From assembly GCF_032118995.1 (NCBI RefSeq), contig NC_092650.1, positions 8,494,001-8,558,000 of the forward strand: 64,000 nt of DNA. The letters run 5' to 3'. Within the stretch, counting starts at the first letter, position 1. Every line of letters starts with the position of its first letter. Source of the DNA: Asterias amurensis. Lineage: Eukaryota > Echinodermata > Asteroidea > Forcipulatida > Asteriidae. Of the stretch, positions 11,244 through 34,968 are shown in pieces. The position numbers and the translations under genes are program-made. The notes under the pieces are model-generated. The model was given only the letters and a program-made list of their open reading frames with translations. It was not told where the DNA came from and ran no database searches.

Positions 11244-14200
11244 TTAAAGCATGGTTGCCTCGAGGGAGAGGAAAAAGTACAATATACAAAGACCAAAGAG
11301 CACCGACAGGCAGTCCATGAATTCTGGTGCAGTGTTGGTCCCTGTCTGATGAGAAGCAGGTCTCTGCTGGCTGGTCTCTTGGCTACTTCTTGCTAGTTGA
11401 TAACCTAGTGTTCTGATAGGGAAGCTGGTGTTGTCTGTAGATTCATCATATGAATCTTTCGTCTTACTAGCTCCATCTTGGAGTATGTCACAAGATCCAT
11501 TTTCACCATCTCCCGTAGACTCCATGTTGTCACGAGGATGATCACGGCAAAATTTGTCGAATGGTACCTTATCAAGTAGCTGGTTGATTCTAGCTTCTAA
11601 ATTACTGAATTTTCTGACCAGTACGCCAATGTCATATTTCACTTCAGAATCTGAATCTTTCCTCTTCTTAGCTCCATCTTGGAGTTTATTGCAAGGTCCA
11701 TGTTCACCATCTCCCATGGATTCCAACTTACTGCAAGGGCAGTCATGGCTTTCCTTATTAAAGGGTAGCTGCTTAATCAGCTTGGATCTTCCTGCTGGTT
11801 GAAGTCTGCTTTCTTCCAAGAGGCCAATATCATCTGTTGATCCATCATTTGAGATTATCTTCTCAGTTACTCCACCTTGGAGTTTATTGCAAGGTCCATG
11901 TTCACCATCTCCCATGGATTCCATCTTGCTAGGAGGATAGTCTTGGATTTCCCTATCAAAGGGTACCTGCTCAATCAGCTTGGATCTTCCTGCTGGTTGA
12001 AGTCTGCTTTCAACCAAGAGGGCAATATCATCTGTTGATCCATCATTTGAGATTATCTTCTCAGTTACTCCACCTTGGAGTTTATTGCAAGGTCCATGTT
12101 CACCATCTCCCATGGATTCCATCTTTCTAGGAGGGTAGTCTTGGCTTTCCTTATCGAAGGGTACCTGCTCAATCAGCTTGGACCTTCCTGCTGGTTGATG
12201 TCTGCTCTCATTCAAGAAGCCTGTATCATCTGTTGATCCTGCATCTGAGATTATCTTCTCAGTTACTCCTTCTTTGAGTTTATTACAGGGTCCATGTTCA
12301 CCATCTCCCATGAATTCCATCTTTCTAGGAGGGTATTCTTGGTTTTCCTTATCAAAGGGTACCTGGTGCTTAATCAACTTTGATCTTCCTGCTGGTTGAA
12401 GTCTGCTTTCAACCAAGAGGGCAATATCATTGGTTGATCCATCATCTAAGATTATCTTGGATCTTCCTGCTGGTTGAAGTCTGCTTTCAACCAAGAGGGC
12501 AATATCATCTGTTGATCCATCATCTAAGATTATCTGCTTAGATGCTCCATCTTGGAGTTTATTGCAAGGTCCATGTTCACCATCTCCCATGGATTCCATC
12601 TTGCTAGGAGGGTAGTCTTGGCTTTCCTTATCAAAGGGTACCTGCTTAATCAACTTTGACCTTACTGCTGGTTGAAGTCTGCTTTCAACCAAGAGGGCAA
12701 TATCATCTGTTGATCCATCATCTGAGATTATCTCCTTAGTTACTCCATCTTGGAGTTTATTGCAAGGTCCATGTTCACCATCTCCCATGGATTCCATCCT
12801 TTCATGAGGATGGTCCTGGCAATCTCTGCCAGATTGGTCATCAGGGGCAGAGTAGAGGGATCTCACACGACCTTTTGTAGCTTCTCTCCTCATCTGAATT
12901 ATCATCTGCTGGCAAAGATTTCCAAATATTGTCAGATCTAGACTTAACAAGCCTGGGATGTTCTCAAGCTAAATACATCTCATTAAAACAATCCCCATTG
13001 AGGGCAAATAAAAAATGTGTTCCAGCAAAAGTACTCAAGTACTGAAGACTTGTAATTAAGAGCAAAATATTAAAACAAACATTGATGCGAAGAAGATTCA
13101 ACTTTTCGAAATGATCTATCAGTGACGAGAACCTGAAATAAAATGGGAGCCCCAAAAGTCTTGACCTATGCAAAATAGATCAATGCTCTTTTAATAACAC
13201 TTACTTTATCATTTTGAGTTGTCATTTCAGGAGTTGAGAGAGCAGTTTTGATGATCGGAGTATCCTTAACATGCTCAAGAGACTCGGCAAATGTTGACTT
13301 CATAGCCCCGTTGTCCGATGCATTATTGACCAAAAAGGAAGACAATTTGCCAGCCACCTGTTGGGACTTTGTGACCAGTTCATTAATGTTGGTCAACAGG
13401 TCAGCAATTTCACTGACCATGTTAGTAGATTGCATGGTGAAGTCATTAGATTGGCTGAGAGCCAAGTCTTTAGTGATGGTTAAGGTCTTGTTAGCAGATA
13501 CCACCTCAGGAGACTTGGAATTCTTGACAAGGTCACTAGACTGCACATCGATTTTAGGAGCCAGTTCTTGAGTCTGGTTAACAGAATCTGTAATCTCAGA
13601 GATGTAAGTCAGGTTGGACGATTGTGCCGACAGGGTTGCCATGGTGATACTTGGCGCATCCATCTGTTCAGAAGCTATGAAAATATCAAGAATGTAATTT
13701 TTAAACATATCTAGCTTTCATTTGTTATATTAAAATATTTTGGATCACTTATTGTTTTTAGAAACCCTTTTCTATTGATAAAACAACTCTGTCTGAAGTA
13801 CTTACTGATTGATGAACAATCACTTTCTTCATCATCGGTGTCATTATCGGTGTTATCGGTGTCATCATCGGTGTCATCATCAGTGTCATCATCAGTGTCA
13901 TCATCCGTGTCATCATCCATAAAGGAAATCATGGATTTCAAAGACTTATTAGCAGCCATGGTAACAAGATGTTCACTGTTATTTTGGTCCAGGATCTTAA
14001 TGATATCATCCACATCATTATTCTTATCTTGATCCTGATCCTCAACATCCATCTTAGCAATTGACTGTGAAGGATAAGGACAATAATTTTTTGTGTGAGT
14101 GACATTTTTGTATGAATCTTTCAAAAGAATGAATGTTTAACCTCCTGACACCACTGATGATTGACAGTTGTACACTTCTCTGTCTGATAATCTTATTGCA

Positions 14201-17200
14201 CAGCATGTTTTTATCTGGTTTCCTAGCCAGTGTCAAAGACGTCAGAATTTTGTTCCACAAAAGATTTAACAAGAAACGGCTTTAAATCTCATGTTTTTGC
14301 AAAGCATATTGAATAAATTCAAAAGGAAAACTGACCAGAGCAAGATTTGAACCAATGACCTTCAGATCCAGTGCTCTTCCAACTGAGCTGTCTGTAGCCC
14401 TATGTTGGTGCATGGTCTCCCTATTTTTTACAATATTTTTTATCAGAAGTGCCATTCAGAAGCTATACAACCATTAAATGATGTGATAGCCAGGGATCAC
14501 ACCCAAGTTTATGATACAACCTGGAAACTGGCAGTCAGGGAATCACATTATTAAGCTAGATAGCTCAGTTGGTATAGGGCGCCGTCACATTAAAGGGAAG
14601 GTACACGCTTGGTAATTGGTCAAAGACCAGTCTGTTCACTTGGTGTCCCATCATATGCATAACATATAAGCCTGTGAAAATTTGGGCTCAATCGGTCATC
14701 GGTGCGAGAAAATGATTAAAGAAAAAACACCCTTGAATTTGTATGCTTTCTGATAGAAATAAAAGACTTCTAGCTAGAAGTCTTTTATTATTTTAGTGAG
14801 AAATTACCTCTTTCTCAACAACTACTCTTCTTCAGAGGGAGTCGTTTCCCACAATGTTTTATACTATCAACAGCTCTCCAATGCTCGTTACAAAGTTAGT
14901 TTTTAAGTTAATATTTGTTTTGAGTAATTACCAAACATGTACCTTTCCTTTAATAAGGAGGTCATAGGTTCAAATCATAGTCTCGTAAATTTCTCTTTTT
15001 TTCATCCCCAAACAAAGTAAATAATTTAAATACTATTTTGGATGATGGGGTGACCAATATATATTCCAGGGATGAGAGCATCTTTGTGGACAAGAATCTT
15101 ATTAAGATCAACTAAATTTAGACTCACTTCGTCTGGAATCAACTTGCTCTCCGTGGCTGCATTCATTCCCTCAGATTCTAGAATTAAAATAAATTATTAA
15201 AAAAAGAATAGTATCCCCAAAAATCCAAGAATTAAATTAGAAATGGTGTAAAAAAGAGAAACATAGAAACAGCACAATTTTTTACTGATACTGGTTTTTC
15301 CACTCGACTTCTCTGTAACAATGGTAGTTGAAATAATTGAAGATTGTTTTTTAGGTTTTAAACTTTCCAAAATATATCATTTGTTTGTAAAGACTGTAAA
15401 TTTATGTCTCTCTGAAACTAAAAATTTACAAGGAAAGTACACTTTGCTAAAATTGATTTGATTTAGATTGGTTCCTTACTTGTTGAGGAAGATACAGTGT
15501 CTTTCTTAAGACTCTTCTGATCTGAGTCCATTGTTGACATGAAGGCATTGTAGGTAGCCAGGAATTGAATACGTTCTGCATTCATCTCATCAAGCTTCTT
15601 GATAACTGGATCCCAGTCATCTTCTGTCTCAATTTCCTACAAAGATTTAAAACAATTATTTATTGGGTTTCTTTCTTTTAACTCGTTCATGTCACCATTA
15701 CAATCAAAACCCTTTGAACTAAGATCAATTCTACAGATACTTTACTCATACCGTGTCAACCAATGGGTACGCTGAAGAACCAGTAACAGCATTGCACAAT
15801 AAACTGCCAAAACAGTATCGTAAATCAATACTTATATAAATGATGAACTTTAACAAGCATTTTAAACCATAAAAAGAATGCGCTGAATATTTACTCCATT
15901 CAAGATGTATTTGAATTTTATATTCAGTGGAGGTGAAACGACTTACAAGTTGTTCAATCCATTTGTTCATCCGTGATACATCAATATGGTGTGGGCCTGT
16001 AAAATAAAGCATTGCGGTGTTATTAAAAACATCTCTATGAATTCTGATTGTGTGTAGGCCTAATGGTCTTACTTAAAAAAGTTTAACAGAAAATACATGT
16101 ATAAACCAGTTGACCCGTTTTGCTGAAATTGTTTTTACTTCAGAAATCTGTTACACAATTCATTAAAAAGTTAGGATCAAAAGATAGGAAAAGAGTTTTC
16201 ACAGCAAAATTGAATTTAAAATGAAAGAGTAAAAACATTATTTAAACATTCAATAGAAAACAATTGGTTTGTTGATTTCCCGCAATCTTCAATCTGTTTT
16301 TTGTATAACGGAACTTTTTCACATTTGCTCATGTGCTTTTTTTTTTTGCTTTTTTTAAATAGTAAATATCTAATAAAATTTGTATGGGTATAATGGCTCT
16401 AGACAACCAACCTTGCAACAAATAAAAGTAGTCTTTTGAAATGTGTATATTAGTACGTACAAGGAAAGGTTGGAGGTTCTGGAATCTTCTTGTTCTCTTT
16501 CTCCACCAAGATTGAGACACAAGTTTCTTTGGCATCAGCTCCCTCTTCCTCCTCGGCTTTGACATCATCAGATTTAAAGTCTTCCCCACCGAGTTCTGCA
16601 GGCCCAATCATGTCCTCTATCAAGATGGAGGTAGCACAGTCTTTAGCCTCAGTTCCCTGGATATTGATCTTTTCTTCCTGGTTCTTGCAATCATCAGTGA
16701 TGCTTTCAAGGTCCTCCGTAGCTTCAGCTAAGACGGATACAACCAGTCCATTGGTCTGCAGTTCTAGGATCTGGTCTTCCTGGTTCTTGCAATCATCAGT
16801 GATGCTTTCGAGGTCCTCCGTAGCTTCAGATAAGACGGATGCAACCAGTCCATTGGTCTGCAGTTCTAGGATCTGTTCTTCCTGGTTCTTGCAACCATCA
16901 GCAAAGCTTTTAAGGTCCTGCGTAGCTTCAACTAAGACGGATGCAACCAGTCCATTGGTCTGCAGTTCTAGGATCTGGTCTTCCTGGTTCTTGCAATCAT
17001 CAGTGATGCTTTCGAGGTCCTCCGTTGCTTCAACTAAGACGGATGCAACCAGTCCATTTGTCTGCAGTTCTAGGATCTGGTCTTCCTGGTTTTTGCAATC
17101 TTCAGTGATGCTTTCGAGGTCCTCCGTTGCTTCAACTAAGACGGATGCAACCAGTCCATTGGTCTGCAGTTCTAGGATCTGTTCTTCCTGGTTCTTGCAA

Positions 17201-20200
17201 TCATCAGTGATGCTTTTGAGGTCCTCCGTAGCTTCAGCTGAGACGGATGCAACCAGTCCATTGGTCTGTAGAACTAGGATCTCTTCTTCATGGTTCTTGC
17301 AATCATCAGTGATGCTTTTGAGGTCCTCCGTAGCTTCAGCTAAGACGGATGCAACCAGTCCATTGGTCTGAGGTTCTAGGATCTGGTCTTCCTGGTTCTT
17401 GCTGTCATCAGTGATGCTTTCGAGGTCCTTCACAGCTTGAACTAAGACAGATGCAACCAGTTCTTTGGACAGCAGCTTTACGGTCTCTGCCTCATCATCA
17501 CATGAAGGCTTCTCCGTTACATCAGTTGAGATGGATTCAGTATTAAGGTCTTCATCGTCAAGTCCAAGTATCTCTTCCTTCTTGTTGTTTCCATTATCAG
17601 ATTCAAGGTCCTTGTTACTGAGTTCTGCAGGCGAAACAGAAATCTTGGTATTAAATGCTCCATTGTAGACTATGGTTTCCTTGTCTCCCTGCCCAGTAGG
17701 CTACTTGTTTAGTTCAATGTTGAGAGGTCAATCATGTCGGCTTAATATGTCACATAGAGTGACAGACAAACAAAACAAAGTTCCGATGCAAGATTTTTAT
17801 AATGTGTGTATAATGCACATCATATTTTAAAGCTGACTGAATTTATACATAAAACACATTTAGGATTTTGTTATGACTGACCTGACTGGATGTCCTTCAG
17901 CGCTTCTGCTAAGACAGATGCAACTAGTTCATTGGTCTGCAATGCTAGGATCTGTTCTTTCTGTTTTGTAAGGTCCTTCACAGCTTGAACTAAGACGGAT
18001 GCAACCAGTTCTTTGGACAGCAGTTCTATGGTGTCTTCCTCATCATCACATGAAGGCTTCTCCATTACCTCAGTTGAGATGGATTCAGTATTAAGGTCTT
18101 CATCATCAAGTCCTTGTATCTCTTCCTCCTTGTTGTTTCCATTATCAGATTCAAGGTCCTTGTTACTGAGTTCTGCAGGCGAAAAAGAAATCTTGGTATT
18201 AAATGCTCCATTGTAGACTAGTTTCCTCGTCTCCCTGGCCAGTATTTGCTTGGTTCAGTGTTGAGAGGCCAATCAAGCTGGCTTACTTGCATATCAGTGG
18301 TCACACAGAGTGACAGGCAAACACAACTAATTTCTGATGCAAGAATTAGATCATTTGTGTATTTTAAATGTACTCGGTTTTTTTAAACTGACTGAAGTTA
18401 TTTATCAAATACATTATTAATAAGGATTTATTTATGACTGACCTGAATGGATGTCAACAATGGCGACACTGCCATCAATTTCAAGGTTGGTGCTTGAAAT
18501 GGTGATCACTTTTTCTGACTGGATGTCAACTATGGCGACACTGCCATCAATTTCAAGGTTGGTGCTTGAAATGGTGATCACTTTTTCTGACTGGATGTCA
18601 ACTATGGCGACACTGCCATCATTATCAAGGTTGGTGCTTGAAATGGTGATCACTTTTTCTGACTGGATGTCAACTATAGCAACATTGCCATCAATTTCAA
18701 GGTTGGTGCTTGAAATGGTGATTACTCTTTTCTTTGCCTGAAAATGTTTTATTAAAATCTTATCATTCAAAAAGTATGTTAGAACCATTTATGGATTAAC
18801 TTAAATAGAAATGATACGAAACAAATGTCTCTTTAGCACTCAATTACTAGCACATGTAGGTGTTGCTAACATCAGGAAAGATGATGTATTATGTTAATTG
18901 CTTGACACAGATGTAACCATGCTTAACCAGATTGAAAACAAAAATTAACATCTGCTAAACAGGATAGTTTTCTAATCTGTTTTAATCGCAGATACTCCAC
19001 ACCATGGTATTCCAACAGGTCAGGGCTCGATTTTGGGATAGAATTCTACAAGACCTCATAGCTTGTAGTTCCAAACGAACAGAATCTTGAGTAAGAGCTT
19101 TTTACAGATTAATCAAATTTTCTTATTTGAGCAAACAATACTCAAAGGTTTATCTTATGATCTCTCGACATTTAAAAAAACAAATTTCTGTTGAAGATAT
19201 TATCAATGAGATATAAATGATAAGCTTTACAGACCCAGGGGTAAAATCACTGGCCCCTTTGGTCTGTGGTCAAGTGTTTATTTCGACCCCTGCAGGTGCA
19301 TGGAAAGTATGCCAGTTTGTTTCAGTTGTCAGTGAAGGGAAGAAGTGAGCCATTTTTTAAGTATTGAAGTTCCTGTGCTCCACATGCAACATAAAGCTAT
19401 GAAAACATTTAGTGTTATTTCAGAATTTAGTTTATGTTGCTTTTATGCAATTAACAGCAATAAAAAGATAAAACCTTTCACTTCCATTTAAAGGCAGTGG
19501 ACACTAGTGGTAATTACTCAAAATAATTATTAGCATAAAACCTTACTTGGTAACGAGTAATGGGGAGAGGTTGATGATATAAAACATTGTACAAAACGGC
19601 TCCCTCTGAAGTAGTGTAGTTTTTGAGAAAGAAGTAATTTTCCATGAATTTGATTTCGAGACGTTGAGTTTAGAATTTGAGGTCTCAAAATCAAGCATGT
19701 GAAAGCACACAACTTTGTGTGACAAGGGTGTTTTTCCTTTCGTTCTTGCAAATTAGACTACCGATTGAGCTCAAGTTTTCACAGGTTTGTTATTTTATGC
19801 CATACGTTGAGATGCACCAAGTGAGAAGACTGATCTTTGACAGTTACCAATAGTATCCACTGTCTTTAAAGGAATATTTTGAAGCAATTTAATTAAAGGG
19901 GATCCCCTGTCATGAAATGAAATGACTTTAATGTACAGCCACATGTCAATTTGTTGTGCGTTGCCGATTTTTCTTGTTTGTTGGCTGCTCAACAGACTGA
20001 TATTTACTGTTGATTAATGAACAAATTACACTTCCACTTGGTACTTACCCAGAATCTGAACTTTGATCTTTTCTTCAGTTTCTTGCCTGGATTTTGGGGC
20101 ATATCCACTGGCATACCAGTTAGTCGATCTTAGTTGAGTTAAAGACAAAGATTATGAATTAGATATGTGTTGAGGTTCATTCTTGAAGCTCATTGATGGA

Positions 20201-21755
20201 TATTAATTTTAAACCAAGTGCCTACTACTACAACTACTACTAAAATTCACCCAATTGAAGGCAGTGCACACTGTTGGTAATTATATATGGCCTCAACATT
20301 ATGACATATTTTTGTACCTTGTAGAAATGCCTAAAATACCAAACTTTTTGCATTTACAAGTGCATAATAGCGTGAAAACTGGTAAGTGGAGGATATATCG
20401 TAGCGTCATACGTTATCGACCCTCATATGTTTTCGGTCCCCAACTTTGATTCCTGTTTACCACGAAATTGTGCAAGCTGCACCGGTGACAGAAGCTATGC
20501 AGTTTACTCACGGTCTGTATTTTCATCAGGCTTAATCATGCTGAGAATAAAGTTTCCTGTCCTTGGTTATGCTCAAACAATTATAAAATGATTGACTTTT
20601 GGTACTAATCACTAGTGCATTATTATGCTAACATTCAAGAAGTGAGTCAAAGAAACATCATCCAACCTCGAAAGTTCAAAACAAAATTACTATTCTGCTT
20701 TAGTCACTAAATTGATCCCGTGAGGTGGTTACTATTTGGGATTCTGTGGTGCGCAAATGTGGGGAAAATATTAAAATATTTTAAGTGAAAATGACAACAA
20801 TTATTTTTTTTATTTACTGCATAACTGTTATAAATTCCGATAAGAGCAATAAATATTAAGTCTACATTTAAGAGAAAGTATCACAGATTGGTTTCTTATC
20901 TCCTGAAACCAAACATTACTGGTCTGAAATGGGGGAAAGCGGATTGTTATGAAGTGTAAGTGCATCAAGGGGGGGGGGGTTTACTTTCATGCCTTATGAT
21001 ATCTCTGCTCTAGATTCTAATATAGTTAGTAGCCATAATGCCGTCAGCGTCAAGCTAGCACCGGATTCAGCACCGGATTCAGTGTCGCCTTTATTTTGGT
21101 TGTAACAGCCAGTCGGCTATTGTATGTTTTTAAAAAGGTTTTCAGATACAGTTTTACAGTATTAGGCCTGAAGATTGTGTAACAAGATAGCAATCAGGCC
21201 TAAAACTGTATCTGAAAACCTTTTTAAAAACATACAATAGCTGACTGGCTGTTACAAACAACCAAAAGAATTAATAAGGGTGACACTGAATCCGGTGCTA
21301 GCTTGACACTGGTCATAATGCCTTAGGACAAAAATGTAATTAAATTTGTTAAGTAGGCCTACTAATAGGCAGTTTCAGTGAATTTAAATGCAGGTGATTT
21401 TTTCTCTGGGTAAAAAAATAAATGTCTATTTAAAAAAATTTTTATATCGCAACAATTAAAAAATAATAATGACACTAAAGGCCGAGTTATAGTCGGTCGC
21501 GCGATGGTCGGGCGTCGGAAATCTTGACGCGCAATCATAAAAAGACGCGGTTTTTAGGCCTCAGTCTTAGGATTGCGCGCAAGATTTCCGTCGCGCGACC
21601 ATCGCGCGACCGACTATAAACCGGCCTTTAACACTAACATAACAGTCGAGTAACATTGACATAACAGTAACACACCATTTTACGGAAAAGGGATGAGTGT
21701 GCATCCACTGTCACTTACCTAAAACACCGGTCTTCTTTGAGTGATGGCTTCCCAT
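11244..21755 (-). CDS. Unrecognised repeat-rich 1505-aa protein with lipid-anchor N terminus and C-terminal TM
   Basis: Eleven exons, all splice phases agree, total 4518 nt: 21755-21719, 20128-20049, 18737-18443, 18172-17882, 17624-16461, 15996-15947, 15636-15480, 15177-15128, 14064-13806, 13674-13205, 12908-11244. The protein starts MGSHHSKKTG, which fits the G-x3-S N-myristoylation rule, followed by a basic cluster GKKLKKRSKFRFWAKKR; together these resemble a MARCKS-style membrane switch. Then come four 24-aa repeats (VITISSTNLE type), a block of 34-aa repeats in exon 5 (seven full copies, core CKNQEDQILELQTNGLVASV), an acidic DDDT run in exon 9, an S/T-rich exon 10, and about six 66-aa repeats in exon 11 (core MESMGDGEHGPCNKLQDG). 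The last 25 residues are hydrophobic (LSVLFGLCILYFFLSL), a likely tail anchor. I recognise no known family. The exon 11 acceptor is the least certain junction (12908 or 12905). Function unknown; membrane tethering is inference. Confidence 0.8.
11400..12805 (-). repeat. Coding 198-bp (66-aa) tandem repeats in exon 11
   Basis: About six copies of a 66-aa unit containing MESMGDGEHGPCNKL, IISDDGSTDDIALLVESR, LQPAGRSKLI and VPFDKESQDYPP. Copy 2 has an internal extra piece of about 26 aa duplicating the IILDDGSTDDIALLVESR segment. The last two copies diverge. Copies are similar enough to allow length change by unequal exchange. Confidence 0.9.
13849..13925 (-). repeat. 12-bp coding repeat (DDDT) in exon 9
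   Basis: Five in-frame copies of a 12-bp GAT/GAC/ACx unit encode Asp-Asp-Asp-Thr, continuing into D/T/N-rich sequence. Strongly acidic and probably disordered. A likely length-variable coding microsatellite. Confidence 0.9.
14335..14400 (-). mobile_element. tRNA-derived SINE head
   Basis: Read on the minus strand, CAGCTCAGTTGGAAGAGCAC matches an A-box region and GGTTCAAATC a B box, 25-30 bases apart. The sequence then leaves tRNA homology. It is a SINE-type fragment in intron 8 of the repeat-rich gene rather than a functional tRNA: the acceptor stem is not paired. Confidence 0.55.
14556..14990 (+). mobile_element. tRNA-like SINE split by a MITE
   Basis: TAGCTCAGTTGGTATAGGGC (A-box side) lies at about 14564, and GGTCATAGGTTCAAATC (B-box side) at about 14960. 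A foldback MITE fills the gap. Without it the boxes would be at normal tRNA spacing, so the insertion split the SINE. Confidence 0.65.
14594..14949. mobile_element. TTAA-type MITE family 1 variant, nested in a SINE
   Basis: TTAA duplicates at 14590-14593 and 14950-14953. Ends AGGGAAGGTACACGCTTGG and complement of AGGAAAGGTACATGTTTGG. The interior matches family 1 (CACAATGTTTTATACTATC, CAAAGACCAGTCT). Orientation is reversed relative to most copies. Confidence 0.8.
16461..17624 (-). repeat. Exon 5: 102-bp (34-aa) coding repeats
   Basis: Within this exon about 16700-17440 holds seven full and one partial 34-aa units with the core DCKNQEDQILELQTNGLVAS. The 5' part of the exon is a paralogue of exon 4 (17882-18172), down to the acceptor TTTCGCCTGCAG and the ELSNKDLESDNGNNK start. 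Exons 4 and 5 therefore arose by duplication, with later expansion of the repeat in exon 5. Confidence 0.9.
18443..18737 (-). repeat. Exon 3: four 72-bp (24-aa) coding repeats
   Basis: Four near-identical 24-aa units with VITISSTNLEIDGSVAIVDI. Adjacent copies differ by a few bases, so the array is young or homogenised. Predicted strand-rich from the alternating V/I pattern. Confidence 0.9.
19492..19865. mobile_element. TTAA-type MITE family 1, intron 2 of the repeat-rich gene
   Basis: TTAA duplicates at 19488-19491 and 19866-19869. Inverted ends AGGCAGTGGACACTAGTGG and the complement of AGACAGTGGATACTATTGG. The hairpin centre is complete. Confidence 0.85.
21046..21310. mobile_element. Foldback element, 260 bp, near-perfect hairpin
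   Basis: Left arm from about 21050 (CAAGCTAGCACCGGATTCAG) pairs with the right arm ending at 21307; the CTGTATCTGAAAACC region pairs almost without mismatch for over 60 bases. The spacer is about 30 bases around 21180. It sits in intron 1 and is absent from the right arm of the inverted duplication, so it may be younger than that duplication. Confidence 0.75.
21478..21633. mobile_element. Foldback element with TAAAGGCCG ends
   Basis: TAAAGGCCGAGTTATAGTCGG pairs with CCGACTATAAACCGGCCTTTA. The arms are rich in CGCGCGACC motifs. About 155 bp, no coding capacity. It lies in intron 1 of the repeat-rich gene. Confidence 0.75.
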
Positions 21756-22289
21756 TGTTTTTATCTTGGGAAGCTCCAATCAAAAGCTGAAATTCTCATT
21801 TATTTCTCACCAAAATGAGACAATTTTTTATGAACGTCCACATCGTAAACGATCTCAAAAATCAACAATGGTTTGTGATCCGATTGGTGGAATGTTACCA
21901 GTATGCAAATTGTCTCTTCCTAGACGTTGTTGCTCACTTTTGAAGTGATAAAAACAAACGGATGGGTACCAATCTACTTGAACTCCGACCCACCTTTTCG
22001 TGGTTCTGTTACCATTGATCTCCATTACACACTCTGTGACGGAGATCAATGGTTGCTACGGCCCCCCTTCCTCCACCGCCGCCGGTCAAATAGCCTTTAG
22101 TCAAGATGCACGCGACACACCGGATAGCACGCACAGCACAAAAATGTAACGCACGGAAAAAGACTATCACCGCGAGCGGGCGGCGCGAAGCCATGAAGCG
22201 CCTTTACCAACTCGTTTTGGTGGGGGCCTTTTATTTTTCTCTACATTATTTTGCCAACGATTTTTGTGGGAGAAAATGTAACTAGTTTG

Positions 22290-22640
22290 CATCGAACAAT
22301 CTTGTGACGTCATGCAAGTAAATGTGGCTTCTTTTTGGCCGGCAACTGCACCACGCTAATGCATTATGTATGCAATACATTTTCTCCCACCAAAATCGTT
22401 GGCAAAAATGTAAAGAAAAACACAAGGCCCAAAAACGAGTGTTGGTAAAGACCCTTCGGGTTGTGCGTGACATCTGGCGTGCCGCGTACGCCTTGACTAA
22501 AGGCTACCCGTCACATGGCCCGGACGGGACGTCACAAGACCTGAGATACAAATACATCGAATAACGCACGATTGACGCACACACACACATGTGACGCGTG
22601 CGCGCAATCGTTCCCTTGTGACGTCACGTACAAGTTTCAC
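22290..22640. promoter_or_regulatory. CRE-like sites at the palindrome centre
   Basis: Perfect TGACGTCA octamers occur at 22305-22312 and 22619-22626, upstream of the minus-strand first exon and of its plus-strand copy. This octamer is the canonical cAMP response element. Promoter function is inference from position; no TATA box is evident. Confidence 0.4.
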
Positions 22641-22944
22641 GAGCAAGGGTCACGTGCCTTGTTAAATCAACGCATCGTTCCGTAGTTACAAAAACTGGGT
22701 CGGGGGTCAGGTAGATTGGCACCCAGCTGTTTCATAACTTTGAAGGTGCGCAACAACGTCTAGGGCCTAGGGAGGAAGTGGTAATCTGCATAATTGGTAA
22801 CATTCCACCAATCGGATCTCAAACCATTGTTGAATTTAAGATCGTTTATCGTTACGATGATCATACAAAAATTATTGTCTCATTTTGGTGAGAAAATAAA
22901 TGAGAATTTCAGCTCTTTGATAGGAGTTTTCCTACATATTTATA

Positions 22945-24077
22945 ATGGGAACTAAGCATTCCAAATGCAAATTACATCTTTTTCCGTGAAATGTGTTTTA
23001 ATATTATTGTTGGCGCATGTCATCGTTTATTTTTAACTAAGAGCACTAGCCTAACTACCTGCACTGTTTATTATAATTTTTCATGTATTTCTGTGAGCTT
23101 TTTGCTGACATGTTCCCACGGCCTGCCTACTTTTGCACTTCACAGCACGATAATACTCACATGTGAGGCTTCGTATAGGAAAGATGAAGAAGAATAACCC
23201 ATTCATGACATTTGCTTTGGTTTTAATTCAGTTAGGTTAGACAGTAACTTATTATTGACAAAAGTCCACCTCTCAGTCTAGGTCGACCATTGTCTGGGGA
23301 AAAAATATATAAAAAATAAGACACATCTACTTAAAATCTATAGAATAATTACACTTTAAAGACCTTTCTTTTGTTGATCATGTTGATGAACAAACATCTT
23401 TGGTTTGCTTGGACGGCTCAATCATACAAGCTTTAGACCTAGAAACTGGGACGCTAGATTTCCTTTTCGAAATTTTTGACATTATCGGTTATTTCGAAAA
23501 TAGGAGTCTAACGACTCAGTTACTGGTGACATCACAGATCTTTTAGTAAAACTCACAATTTCAGTTAAATAAAAAACCTCTCAAAGCTATTTGATTTGCT
23601 TTCAACATTCAACACAGTATATTTGAATATCTTTGTAAAATTGAATGTTACAAACAATAGCGATCTGTTTTCGATTTGTCTTCATGGCTTTCCAAAGTTA
23701 AAAACTTATTGGCTGTGATGTTTCAAAAGAATATAGCCAGAACAATGTACAATATAGTTTAGTTACCAGGACTTTATGCACTATAATGTCAAAGACACAA
23801 AATCAGATGGTTAAACAAAAGCTGAAGTTGAAACAAAAGCTTTCAAACTGTTGATACACAAAATCTGGAAACCGCATCGCTTATTAATTGTCTGTTGAAT
23901 ACTACAACAAATAGCGCTGTGTTTTGACATAACTTTGAGAATCAACTTTATTTCTATCTGATGGGGAAATGTAAAATTACCAGGAGTGCTTTTATGAAGT
24001 ATTAGGCCTATATTTAGGTGTTCGGGCCAACAGCCCGGAACACCTCTTATTTTTGTTCGGTTTTTTTTTTTTATTGA

Positions 24078-24109
<32 letters not shown>

Positions 24110-26630
24110 CTTCTTCTTCTGTACGTCCCTTGTCCCCCTACAAAAACATCTTTCCAAACATCGTATGAACTTGAAACTTCACACACAGTTAGATATTTAT
24201 TAGGAGAAGAAACCGTGTGAGATACGTCATGATGACGTCATCAATTCTTGAGTTATGAATATTCAAAGTTTATTAATTCAAAAAATCATAACTTTTGATC
24301 TACATGAGGGATTTTTACAATCGAAACATCATCGGAATCGTCATTGAAAACTCCGTAAACGCCCCACAGACATGACCCCATTTTGATGTTGTCTTCCGGC
24401 TCAAAAGAGAGGTTGAAAATTTCAAAATTCACGTCTAAAGAACAACGTAAATCCCCATTGGTATGTGCATAAACATTGCACGTAGGCATACACACAACGT
24501 GTAGTGTATTAGCGGTGCAGCAGAGCACGCTCCAGTGATCTCCCATTCTGCTTATTAGCGGCGATTGTCCGCTAAAAAAATCACACTTCCCAAGCACATA
24601 TAAAGTTGAAACTTCACACATAGTTAGATATGTATAGGAGAAGAAACCGTTTGAGTTATGTCACGATGAGTTATGTCATCAATTCTTGAGTTATGAATTT
24701 TCAAAGTTTATTATTTCAAAAAATCATAACTTTTGATCTACATGATGGGTTAAAAACTCCGTAAATGCCTCGAAGACGTGATCCCATTTTGAGCTCGTCT
24801 TCTGGTTCAAAATCGAGTTTGAAAGTTCACAATTTCTTGTATAAAGAACTACGAAATTTCCCCATTGGTTGTGCGTAACACTTGTGGCGTACACGTGTAG
24901 TGTATTAGGCATAATGTATTTGGTGGCATGCTGCCAAGTTTGTTGTACTCTGTGCCATAGCGTGATATGCATAGAGCTATAGCTATGCAGAACGCTGCGA
25001 AAACGATTTCGTTTCAATCTTCAGCGTCAAATTGTTCAAATGTTACCCTTCTGATGGCTTAGTGGTCAATGTGGAATTAAAGACGGAGTTTCGCTGAGAT
25101 GGCCACCTACTTCAGTGATTCATGGGACTTTTAATTATGTGAGAAAACAACAGTACAAAATGACGAACATTGGTCATGTTTTGGTTAAACACCGAGAAGA
25201 ATAGAGACGTTACATCGATCGACCACTCCCCCCGGGTGAAGGGCGTTTTGGGCCCACGGAATTCACGTCAGTATTACGATATCTATTACTTCTTGAACTT
25301 AGCATAATCATCAATGGTTTTGATTATTTGATAAAACAACTATCCAAGTTATTTTGAGTTAAATATTTTGAAGAAAAAAAATCTCTGAAATAACATAAGC
25401 CCTTTCAAACTTTCTCTAGTAGGAAAGGACGTTACGTAAACTAATCTATTTCTACCTCCATGCACAGAAATGGATGTTACAATACAAAACATTCAAAGAA
25501 AACAGAATGGTTAAAGCATAAGGCCCAAGCAATTAGGAGTGGTCTTGCTAAAATAAACTGCCGGATTAAACAAAACTTTAGTACAAACAAATCAATAAAA
25601 CAATCCAGATTTTCATCTTCTTCTTCTCTTCGTCCCTTGTCCTCGAACAAAAGCACACTTCCCAAACTCGTATGAACTTGAAACTTCGCACATAGTTAGA
25701 TATGCATTAGGAGTGGAATAATGTGTTAGTTAGGTCATGATGACGTCATCCATTCTTGAGTAATAAAAATTCAAATTATTATTTCAAAAAATCATTATTT
25801 TTGATCCACGTTTTTTTTTTTACTTCTTTTTTAAAACATTATCAATAGAGCGCGAAAAAGCTTCATGAAGAATAGTCTTCGTTCAAGGCGGTTAAACATA
25901 CATGCCCCTTACAGTCTTTTCTTCAGTCGTCAGTCAATATTTCCTAAGTTCATATTTCCTAAACTACATAAGCTATTTTGACAATCTGTACATCATATGA
26001 AAGGGCTTTACGTACTTGACAGAAATGGATATGTTGGTGAACTTTCGTTGACCTATTGACCTGTTTAAACGGGAAGTGACTGTGAAATGATTTGAAAGGG
26101 CGTGGTTTATTGTCTTTTAGGTCGAAATAAACATCCTTTGATGCTTTACCATCACACCATACAAGTCTGGCAAAGGTCTGGTTTAAAACAAATATTACCG
26201 ATGACGTCACCAAACATACACTTTTACTAGATGACGTAATCATGTAGTTTTGACAGTTTTTGTAATTTGAATCATTTATTACAAATCTTGAGAACAAAGC
26301 AAGGTGTAATATTTGTTATTTAATCCAGGCTTTTACTCCCGGAAACCGAACACCTTGAGTTTGTTCACAAACTCTCAATCTCTAGTTATTCTAAAGTTAT
26401 GCTATTGAGTGACTTCGTACTTGATACTGCAAATTTTAGTAGTGTGTAGAAGGCTCTCTGGGTATAAACATAATAATATCCATCAATGAGCTTCAAGAAT
26501 GAACCTCAATACATATCTAATTCATAATCTTTGTCTTTAACTCAACTAAGATCGACTAACTGGTATGCCAGTGGATATGCCCCAAAATCCAGGCAAGAAA
26601 CTGAAGAAAAGATCAAAGTTCAGATTCTGG
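22945..26630 (+). pseudogene. Inverted partial copy of exons 1-2 of the repeat-rich gene
   Basis: At 22945 the plus strand reads ATGGGAACTAAGCATTCC (MGTKHSK), the counterpart of the MGSHHSK start; the stretch holding the original exon 1 donor is missing. At 26551-26630 an 80-nt exon 2 copy is intact, with the acceptor CTCAACTAAG and donor GTAAGTACC, encoding the same DRLTGMPVDMPQNPGKKLKK peptide. I find no later exons on this strand. It is most likely a broken copy; exon 2 could still be spliced into other transcripts. Confidence 0.75.
24016..26356. mobile_element. 2.3-kb element with internal repeats and hairpin end
   Basis: Ends AGGTGTTCGGG (24016) and CCGAACACCT (about 26346). Three diverged copies of a roughly 145-bp unit (CTTGAAACTTC, AGTTAGATAT, TTCTTGAGTTATGAAT, TCATAACTTTTGATC) lie near 24167, 24600 and 25668. 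A (TTC)n run of about 14 units sits at 24079-24120. At the left end AGGTGTTCGGGCCAACAG folds with CCCGGAACACCT; read on the minus strand this hairpin is followed 10 bases later by CTAA then T, as at a Helitron 3' end. No protein is visible. Class uncertain. Confidence 0.55.
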
Positions 26631-26798
26631 GTAAGTACCAAGTGGAAGTGTAATTTGTTTATTAATCAACAGTAAATATCGGTCTGTTGAGCAGCCAAAA
26701 TGTTTTGTACCAAACACATTGTAGTCAGTTTGTCACGTTAAACCCACATCTCTTGGTTTTTTTTTGTAACAACTAGTTGAACGCAAATTTAAATGCTA

Positions 26799-27702: not shown

Positions 27703-30700
27703 TCATGATGGTGTGATCCTGATCCGGCGAGGTGGTGCAGAATGTGATCGTATTCGCCTGGTTGAAGTCAGGCGATGAGCGGTTCCCGTCTTCCGGTTGG
27801 TACCTGATTTGGGACGCCTCTTCGTACGTGGTTTGTCCTTCAACATCTGCAGCTCTTCCCATTGTTTCTGCATGCACCACTTCTTAAAGACTTCCTGCGC
27901 TGCTTCTTCGCGACCGGCTTTGGCACGTTGCTTCTCATCCTCCTTTTGCTTTGCAGCTTTCCTCTCCTGCTTTTGTTTTTCAATTTTCGCGGCTAGCCAG
28001 GTTTCAGTCGATTTACCACCGTTCAGTCTTGCCGCGGCTTTCTTTTCCGTCTCTTGGTCCTGTTTAACCGACTCGGCTGCCAGCTTATCGGCGCGAAGTC
28101 TCCCCTGGTTAGTTTTCTTTTCAGCCCAAGCTTCGAATGTCAGCGGAGTTTTTATCTGGACCTGGTCATCGCACTCGACGACCAAAGTTTCATCTTTCTT
28201 ACCGAATGCATCATTCAGCATTCTGTTAACTTTGTTAACTAGCTTCCGATCTCGTGCGTCTTGTGACTTGGAGGCAAGCCAGTCATTGAAAGCTTGTTCA
28301 TTTTCTTCAGGAGTTGGTTTCCTTTTGGAAACCTTATACGGTGATGGAGACCCATCACTGAGCTTGCTTTCCTCTTCCTTCATAAACTGCAGGCGTTGAG
28401 GGTGTTCAACTGGTAGATCTATTACATGTCGGAGCTTATCGTTTAGATAGTTGATTCTCATATCATTTATCTCTCTTGAGTCTAATTCTTCTGAGGACTG
28501 GTCACTGCTGTTTGAGAACGAATCATTGGCCTTATTTCCCATAGTGATTTCATTACCGTCTCCACGATCATTTCTAGGTACTTGTCCATTGACATTGTTG
28601 GTTTCACAAGTACCAAGATTTTGCCTGGAGTTGTGCCTTTCATTGTCATTTGTGACGAGTATTTTTCGAAGACAACTTTTTGCAGCATCGGTCTGTACCG
28701 AGTCCAGTGATGGACGACTACTAATTGGAACTTGTACAGGTGACCTTTGAATAAGATGAAAAAAATTTAAGATTTAAAACAACATACTATATGACAGATT
28801 TCGAAAATAATTATTCGATTGACATTTTTTTCCATATTCAATGGTTTTGATACCTTTTGTATATCCAGTTTATGGCCATGACATGAGTACCTATAGTCAT
28901 TGTGAATGAAGATGAGTATAATTTATCCGTATAGTTTCAGCTTTATTAGTCGTCAAGTTTTGGAAAAAAATGTGAAAATCACAGACCAATGTTTTCAAGA
29001 GGTGCTAAAGTGACATTGCTTTGCTAATTATCTCAAAAATACTACAGCATCTCAAAGCAAGCTTTCTTCCAGCCTTTAAACCGTTTAAGACTGTGGATAT
29101 TGTGGTCTACAAAAACTATGAAAATCCTTTAACAGAGTTCTTTTAAAAACTACACCATCCCATTATCTTTTCAGTGACGAACCTATAATATGAATCCGAT
29201 GGTATCGCTACACTATTCTGTATGTTTTTGCTGGCGGAATACTTGTCCATGTTTGTGGGTGGTCTCTGTGAGTCGCCGGGTGAAAACTTGACTGATTTGG
29301 GCGTGGCACTTTTGGGTCTTCGTCCAGCTGTTGATGAAAGAGCTGAATTAGGACGATCGTGGAGACGAACTGAGCGTGCCATCGATTCCCTATCGGTTGT
29401 GATCTTGCTTCCATGTGGAGAAGAATCCTGTTAGAAAGTCAAAGTTTAATATCAGATATAAGCAATTTCGTGTGCTCTGCTAATAACTACAACAAGAAAA
29501 TGCGCGTAAAAACATAAGACAGTGAACAGCCGAAAAAATTATGACTAAAGTGCGCATTGAAAATGAACATGTGTTGTCGACAGCTCTTTCCTTTTATACG
29601 GAAAGCAGCGGTTATGTAGAAAATGTATTCTACCAACGAGTGTTCCGTGAACAGAAGCCGTCTGCTCACATGAATCATACTATAAAGAGTATGATCTGCT
29701 AAACATCTTTTAGAAAAAATAACAAAGCAAAGTTTGCGCTAAAATTCGATTAGTCTCATGTTTCACAGAAAAACAAATTTATTAAACTGTCATCAGATAT
29801 GTTACACCTAATTTATATCGGTGCACACCAAGGGCATACCTCTGTCTTGGATGGTGCATGGAGTTGACTGCTTTTAGCAAAATCGCGGAGAGACTCCCAG
29901 CTCTCGGTGCTTGACGTAGCACTGTCATTCTGAAATAAAGAACTATGAGCCAATTTTGAAGACAATGGCCTCCGGTTCCTCTCGAAGTAATGATGATGAT
30001 GCTCCCGACCCTTCCAAGCAGTTATCATGAGTTCTGGACCGGGAGTGATCGCCAGCTCCTTCAGGGATATGGTCGGTGCTACGCTACTCCCAAGTTTGGA
30101 CTTTGGGAATCTCGGAGACGTGGACCAAGTGCATGTTTTTTCCTTGGTGGCCTTGTTGGCAAGAATCCTTGCGTAGAGCACGACCCGTCGTTGTGCTCCC
30201 TGCTGTCCGCAGGAGGCGGCAGTGTCTGCCGGTGTTTGGTGGGAGGCGTCTTTAATTTCTAGCAACGCACCGTGTTGAAGGAGGCTGTCGATGCATCCAT
30301 TGTTGCCCATGGCGCAGGCAACGTGTAGGGCTGTCCTGCCGGATGGAGTTTGGGAATTCGGAAGAGCACCATCGCAGAGCAATCTGGAGATAAAAACATT
30401 AGTAAGTTAGGACATGTTTTGTCACATTGTGCCAGAGGACAGTGAATTAAACATAATTTGTATTCTGGAAATTACCTAACATGACAGGCCTCGAACAAGT
30501 ATCGCCTCATTATGACTAATTTGAAGTATACGACTTTCGGGATTTGTGAAAATTTAAACGTACGATGACCTTCTATTCTCGACAACAAGAGTGTGAAATA
30601 ATTAAATCTTTGCCAATACTCACCTATCAACAAGGTAGTGAAAGCCCTTGTGTGCAGCAATAAACATCGCAACAAATCGCCTCTGTGACATCCCATCAAC

Positions 30701-33716: not shown

Positions 33717-34968
33717 GGTGGCCCTGAAGGGACACAGCCAGTCGTGAATATTTTCGCGACGTCGTATAGTTATTCACGACAAGTCGCGAATATTTTCGCG
33801 ACGTCGCGAATATTTTCACGACTAGTCGCAAATATTTTCGCGACGTCGTATATTTATTCACGACAAGTCGCGAATATTTTCGCGACGTCGTATATTTATT
33901 CACGACAAGTCGCGAATATTTTCGCGACGTCGCGAATATTTTCACGACTAGTCGCGAATATTTTCACGACTAGTTGCAAATATTTTTTACGACGTCGTGA
34001 ATAATTCTGCGACTAGTCGTGAATAAATTCGCGACTAGTCGTAAATATTTTTTCAGTAGCTTGAGTGTGTAATTCTTACACGGCACGCGTAGAGAGCCAA
34101 GCTATATAGCCACTCAGCTATGTGTATGGGGCCCATGTTTTATCCAGTAGAATTGCTATCGAAGTTCGAAAAAACAGTGTCTGACTTTCATCAATATTTC
34201 GGGGGTTTTCAAGGTTGATTTACTCCAAACCCAAATAATTCTGAATGCCAAAGGATTAATCTTTCAGTTAAACTTGGTGGGGGATTACGTGATGCGTTGC
34301 ACCCTGCCGTGACGGAACGAACTCGCGTTTCAAGTTGGAAATAACAACGCAAATTGCTCTTACATTTCAGGTAAAAATTGTCAAATTTATTTGCTGAAAT
34401 TGTCAATACATTATAATTAAACTTATCATTGGGTTGTTGTAAAATTTACCTCGGGTGACATATAACGTTATGTTTTATCTGAAGAGTGAAAGTGCCAACG
34501 TTTATTGCCTAGCATAGGATAGCCTTCTCCTACTAAAGTACTAGTAAAACTATAACGTCAGGCCTCGTAGGCCTACCGTAAGGGCCATACGTCAACGTTA
34601 GTTTTGTTTAAATAACCCACCATCGATTTGCAAGAGTCGGAATTCTCCTCCGGATCCATCATCGTACGGGACAGCTTTCAGCTTAGTCTTACTAAGCCGT
34701 CAACGTGAATACAGTAATTACACACTCAAGCTACTGAAAAAATATTCGCGACTAGTCGCAGAAATATTCACGACGTCATGAAAATGTTCGCGACTAGTCG
34801 TGAAAAAATTCGCGACTAGTCGTGAAAAAATTCGCGACTTGTCGTGAAAAAATTCGCGACTAGTCGTGAAAAAATTGGCGACTTGTCGTGAATAAATTCA
34901 CGACGTCGCAAAAATATTCACGACGTCGCAAAAATATTCACGACTGGCTGTGTCCCGTCAGGGCCACC
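33717..34968. mobile_element. 1.25-kb foldback transposon with compound, palindrome-rich ends
   Basis: Target duplicate ATACTAT at 33710-33716 and 34969-34975. Ends GGTGGCCCTGAAGGGACAC and its near-complement. Inside each end is an array of short palindromic units (CGCGAATATTTTCGCG, GACTAGTC, GACGTC) over about 300 bp at the left and 240 bp at the right. A further inverted pair, TAGCTTGAGTGTGTAATT and AATTACACACTCAAGCTA, encloses the unique centre (about 34075-34715). No transposase; non-autonomous. The arrays may be binding sites for a transposase (inference). Confidence 0.85.

Follow-up and report, generated by a model that had tools for sequence, protein, structure and literature searches.

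The 5' end of one gene is present twice, head to head, in the stretch of DNA analysed here (the window, 64,000 bp, C3:8494001-8558000), and we consider this arrangement to be, with fair probability, an old inverted partial duplication that was broken by insertions and that carries one recent gene-conversion (or inversion) tract. An inverted duplication with a second gene start had been predicted at this place; it is real and its halves lie head to head, but it is smaller and patchier than described. Comparison of 19.9-26.7 kb with itself yields, besides repeats, two inverted pairs, an inner and an outer one. Their outer ends, at 19981 and 26698, agree with the limits of about 20000 and 26700 to which the arms had been traced, but continuous arms between the blocks were not confirmed. 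All genome searches were made in one assembly (491,506,623 bp, 23 contigs).

Two inverted blocks of one gene

The host gene lies at 11244-18770 on the minus strand and is orphan-like, with an acidic run, a hydrophobic C-terminus and internal repeats in tandem (units of 24 aa, 34 aa and 198 bp). Five pieces of it compared with Pfam gave one weak match under the cut-off and zero families above it, and a 127-aa piece searched against the genome found no relatives elsewhere, both matches being inside the host gene itself. Judged by titles and abstract openings, none of the papers listed seems to treat the locus. On the left side, exon 1 (37 coding nt) and exon 2 (80 nt) make up 39 codons, exon 2 linking to exon 1 in phase 1 and to exon 3 in phase 0 without loss of frame; the splice signals and the reading frame are consistent with a predicted product MGSHHSKKTGVL-DRLTGMPVDMPQNPGKKLKKRSKFRFW-AKKRVITISS, the start of which we take to be an N-myristoylation-type motif. 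The blocks and the features inside them are the following.

19981-20205, minus strand: left outer tract (intron 1 end, exon 2, intron 2 start), 222/225 identical to the right arm, gapless
20049-20128, minus strand: exon 2 (80 nt), predicted from splice signals and frame
20206-20247, minus strand: left fringe, diverged homologue of 26432-26473, 34/37 ungapped columns identical, 6 gap openings
21661-21998, minus strand: left inner arm (upstream region, exon 1, intron 1 start), from alignment and shuffles
21719-21755, minus strand: exon 1 coding part (MGSHHSKKTGVL + 1 nt), then GTAAGT donor, predicted from sequence
22690-23007, plus strand: right inner arm (upstream region, exon-1-like start, intron start), from alignment and shuffles
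22945-22989, plus strand: exon-1-like frame MGTKHSKCKLHLFP, closed by a stop; relative to the left arm, 31 bp are absent, the donor among them
26432-26473, plus strand: right fringe, diverged, from alignment to the left fringe
26474-26698, plus strand: right outer tract, near-identical to 20205-19981
26551-26630, plus strand: exon 2 copy

The inner pair (21661-21998 / 23007-22690) aligns with a score of 302 against a shuffle maximum of 65, none of 300 shuffles being as good, while in the same-strand control 146/300 shuffles were as good; the block may extend to about 21631/23033 (0/100 shuffles). Its identity depends on the aligner, at 77% with blastn, 80% in a longer alignment and 84-87% in another that opens 8 and 13 gaps, the last two being counted over ungapped columns. 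For the upstream parts of these arms, genome searches gave no match other than the opposite arm. Two opposed starts lie within this pair, MGSHHSK at 21755 on the minus strand and MGTKHSK at 22945 on the plus strand; the latter had been predicted and was found, though its donor is absent. The best donor-like site between 22940 and 23300 scores 4.9 and the left donor 6.0, by a simple weighting. When ten exon pieces were searched by tblastn in 22500-43000, later exons were not detected on the right side of the locus; exon 2 was returned at E 7e-16, and the four other rows stood at E 0.18-0.84. An exon-1 copy without a donor, an early stop and no later exon found rightward make the second start probably unusable, and from its sequence the right arm is probably a dead 5' fragment. 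Farther right, a coiled-coil gene (27703-28773, minus strand; weak CCDC34 match, below the cut-off) ends toward the right arm, polyA-like signals occur on both strands near 27.3 kb (27316, 27354), and two tandem arrays of AGTCGCGAATATTTTCGCGAC-type units occupy 33740-34945.

The outer pair (19981-20247 / 26698-26432, inverted) is 93.4% identical over 272 columns in the self-comparison and contains exon 2 with its flanks. Searching the genome with 19981-20247 gave two matches, both at the locus (2/2 candidates scored), and no third copy of exon 2. The right arm had been said to hold a perfect exon 2 with both splice signals, and it does, 80/80 bases being identical, with AG before and GTAAGT after, the same signals as on the left. 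All three differences in the tract fall outside exon 2, in the 77 bp that precede it and the 68 bp that follow it (145 bases in all), so that the flanks are ~98% identical, and constraint on the exon alone is therefore insufficient to explain the likeness of the tract. A minus-strand polyA-like signal at 26658 lies within the right tract.

Next to the tract, the similarity continues into a diverged fringe. Its local alignment score was equalled by 0/2000 shuffles with a 48-bp partner and 1/2000 with an 80-bp partner, its global score by 0/2000 and 8/2000, respectively, and its score was reached by none of 6364 other window segments; the sequence is partly TAG-repeat-like. On this sequence comparison, the fringe looks like true homology in register with the exon-2 tract. 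The ratio of events to matches is 3:222 for the tract and 9:34 for its fringe; for the upstream region it is 44:202, and for exon 1 together with the intron start 18:51. Fisher tests, in which gap openings count as independent events, separate the tract from the fringe (p 5e-6) and from the upstream region (p 2e-10). Per 100 ungapped columns, there are 19-30 differences in the fringe and the inner pair, against three over 225 bp in the tract. Divergence hence shifts abruptly at the border between tract and fringe, within continuous homology, and the other side of the tract is the end of homology. Beyond 19981/26698 no homology was found (185/300 and 67/100 shuffles equally good) in a test that, on the side of 19981, spanned 18734-19486 and excluded the repeat at 19487-19869. 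That repeat belongs to a dispersed ~390-bp family with several other sites in the window, members of which also lie beside several of the repeat copies examined elsewhere.

Mobile DNA between the blocks

The sequence that separates the blocks is to a large part mobile, and the following elements were recognised (strand not assigned).

20254-21408: dispersed mobile sequence within left intron 1, with at least 39 further places (40 best of 2039 candidates)
21043-21313: nested palindromic element of 271 bp with 9-bp target duplication CATAATGCC, from self-comparison and genome search
21472-21634: second palindromic element in left intron 1, from self-comparison and genome search
22091-22506: dispersed palindromic element (foldback/MITE-like), from genome search
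23077-23198: short dispersed repeat in the right arm, from genome comparison
23366-23759 (approximate): old dispersed repeat, ~310 bp in other copies, from genome comparison
24011-26393: recent mobile element, with two copies of ~99% identity on contig C18

The arms had been thought to meet near 22330. We considered a large palindrome centred there and rejected it, since its centre is the element at 22091-22506, which has 39 other places at 79-87% identity among the 40 best of 240 candidates. The inner arms reach no farther than 21998 and 22690, the flanks of the spacer are unmatched (176/300 shuffles as good), and the apparent meeting point results from the mirror symmetry of the element.

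The dispersed DNA at 20254-21408 is split by the nested element at 21043-21313; its initial ~140 bp may belong to a different repeat, and its right limit falls between 21356 and 21408. The nested element has seven other near-full-length places at 85-89% (23/23 candidates scored), and the one at 21472-21634 has at least 39 others at 96-99% (40 best of 590 candidates). The repeats found only in the right arm differ by ~10-23% and 20-26% from the relatives listed for them, which fits an old duplication. The real right end of the 2.4-kb element at 24011-26393 is possibly a few bases before 26393. This element contains internal ~200-bp sub-repeats and a CTT microsatellite, its right 1.5 kb occurs in at least 46 other places at 96-100% (40 best of 1533 candidates), and it finishes with a hairpin followed by CTAG, an end that we take to be Helitron-like.

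Once all detected repeats are removed, 271 bp of intron are left on the left side and 686 bp on the right, some of the repeat limits behind these figures being approximate. The agreement at about 1.2 kb on which the original prediction relied is thus lost; lengths of 1155 and 1202 bp arise only if 20254-21408 and the two smaller right repeats are overlooked, and the earlier figure probably reflects the removal of obvious repeats only. A search for further intron homology gave best values of 2/100 shuffles (in two rows that overlap), 3/100 and 6/100, all others being at 15 or more. The best of these suggested a longer shared intron, between the left mobile DNA and 23199-24010 (2/100 shuffles); it was rejected, 23366-23759 being a different repeat family. 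Recognisable homology is confined to the inner block, the ~42-bp fringe and the outer tract, and the remainder between the blocks is mobile or unalignable, an outcome that decay would also yield.

An unstable palindrome and hairpin RNA had also been envisaged. The arms are far from perfect, and any instability would come mainly from the 225-bp pair, the members of which are 6.3 kb apart. The strongest shuffle-tested hairpins are mobile elements (21043-21313, -161.6 kcal/mol, z -23.3; 21470-21640, -112.7 kcal/mol, z -15.7), and the fold of 21661-23007 reaches -611.5 kcal/mol, a figure that includes the central element and is without shuffle control. Since the two starts point apart, the arms could form double-stranded RNA only if one transcript reads through both.

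Exon-1 copies about 50 kb away

Two more copies of exon 1, C and D, both on the minus strand, are located at C3:8464.0-8464.7 kb, left of the window and ~50 kb from the locus, and the second start is therefore not unique. Copy C (C3:8464.6 kb) was the one short match, besides the arms themselves, when each inner arm was searched in the genome; it is 88% identical over 65 bp to the right arm and 76% over 88 bp to the left, reads MGTNHSKKTSVLG and has GCAAGT at the donor position. Copy D (C3:8464.0-8464.1 kb) is 85% identical over 99 bp to the left arm (blastn in the fetched neighbourhood), and reads MGSKHSKNTGVLG with the donor GTAAGT. A partial fifth match near C3:8466.1 kb has no ATG at the corresponding place. 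HSK is common to all four exon-1 copies. The end of exon 1 and a donor site are present in the left arm, in C (as GCAAGT) and in D, and the stretch that is absent from the right arm is kept in both C and D, diverged past the donor in C. Because C and D still carry its counterpart, the right arm most likely lost the 31-bp stretch.

Among 17 informative columns, nine pair the left arm with D and the right arm with C, five pair the left arm with C and the right arm with D, and three pair the two arms; between -10 and +14 relative to the start codon, 6/6 informative columns support the first grouping. In exon 1, the right arm is accordingly nearer to copy C and the left arm to copy D, and for the upstream region and exon 2 the closest relatives of the arms are each other, at the search sensitivity used. 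Ten exon pieces compared with C3:8445001-8494000 detected no host-gene exon other than exon 1 near C and D (E 0.001; cut-off 0.01), and the upstream regions of the arms found nothing convincing in the 49 kb around them (one row, E 0.33). Copy D was missed by the genome search with the left arm, and D as query retrieved only D. Short diverged copies escape these genome searches, so they argue only weakly against further exon-1 copies. Judging from the four sequences, the arms appear to be old members of a small local exon-1 family, and may be such members rather than a copy and its original. The simplest order would begin with the inverted duplication, followed by the derivation of C and D from the right and left lineages, respectively, and then by the loss in the right arm; the same grouping of C and D could also be obtained through exchange among family members.

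Origin of the arrangement and known parallels

We propose that a segment of one gene, reaching from its upstream region through exon 1, intron 1 and exon 2 into the beginning of intron 2, would have been duplicated head to head, and that independent mobile-element insertions would then have filled the introns and the spacer. The right start was likely coding for a time, as the related copy C still reads MGTNHSKKTSVLG, and would later have lost 31 bp including the donor, becoming a 5' fragment. Subsequently, the exon-2 regions may have paired again, one overwriting the other over ~225 bp by non-crossover gene conversion; alternatively, a crossover would also have flipped the intervening 6.3 kb. 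That the arms go back to one event, as originally predicted, is still the best account of their origin. Our reason is the diverged fringe, which adjoins the exon-2 tract in register; the argument from intron length fails.

It is possible, if rather unlikely, that two events were involved: the upstream region and exon 1 would have been duplicated in inverted orientation long ago, and a ~270-bp exon-2 piece would have been copied, also inverted, later and independently. The inner and outer divergences are very unlike, most of the intron is without clear homology, and the exon-1 copies 50 kb away have no detected exon 2, so exon 1 may travel alone. The link between the inner and outer blocks rests on their order, their orientation and the ~42-bp fringe, which weighs against a single event. 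However, the fringe is indel-rich, diverged and extends the exon-2 tract in register, and the block order and orientation match those of a single copy.

We regard as improbable that crossovers keep the exon-2 tract alike, the 6.3 kb flipping back and forth so that chromosomes differ in the start that is joined to the gene. A 225-bp inverted pair with 222/225 identity is available for such an exchange and includes exon 2, which would survive intact. However, a single assembly presents one orientation, the alternative start has no donor and would probably break the gene, and inverted pairs so short seldom recombine. It would be a long shot, further, to see in the exon-2 pair a flip site and in the exon-1 copies on this contig interchangeable modules, with orientations starting with MGSHHSK and MGTKHSK both carried in the population.

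Still less do we expect the right arm to be a working divergent start for a short protein or an RNA. Two CCAAT-type motifs lie at similar distances from both starts (-129/-138 and -215/-231), with an extra one at -153 in the right arm only; the exon 2 copy has perfect splice signals, HSK is kept in every exon-1 copy, and the arms have a weak third-position bias (6/10 changes in eight codons by hand count, the eighth perhaps being non-homologous). Against this stand the missing donor, for which the best candidate scores 4.9 against 6.0, the early stop, and the CCAAT-type site at -22 of the left arm, which was not found on the right. Selection preserving the right upstream region was considered and rejected, as the clustering of its conserved stretches does not exceed that seen in simulated, realigned even decay (230/1000); plain column shuffles gave 140 and 749 of 10000, but ignore alignment bias. 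An assembly artefact from misjoined haplotypes is hardly credible, since the inner arms are far more diverged than expected of alleles and their insertions differ, and the probable source assembly is reported to have used HiFi sequencing of ~15-kb fragments, longer than the structure (PMC10625585).

The preferred reading, an inverted duplication with decay, insertion and conversion, makes the locus ordinary in kind, the exon-2 tract being its neat and testable feature. It would be a compact natural case of an old inverted duplication with one exon-sized tract recently rewritten, and it illustrates that a decayed duplication can resemble one large palindrome through the presence of a mobile palindrome and of insertions that were not fully removed. 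If the tract flips, it would provide a testable inversion polymorphism that alters the start of a gene.

As in known partial inverted (head-to-head) gene duplications, two blocks of one gene stand in opposite orientation and mirror order, the 5' end having been copied opposite and beside the original, truncated and decayed; unlike them, the locus has a recent near-identical exon tract and exon-1 copies 50 kb off. Gene conversion between inverted repeat arms occurs in sex-chromosome palindromes, with which the locus shares a sharp mosaic of near-identical and diverged sequence in paralogous inverted arms. Here the change in divergence is abrupt on one side, and the non-coding flanks are nearly as alike as the exon. 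However, those palindromes are multi-kilobase, whereas the locus has one short tract and arms of a few hundred bases, without the long near-identical arms and short centre of a perfect palindrome or hairpin locus. Finally, the central element (22091-22506) and the two hairpins of the left intron resemble foldback/MITE-type elements in being dispersed palindromes, but the arms of the duplication are not such an element.
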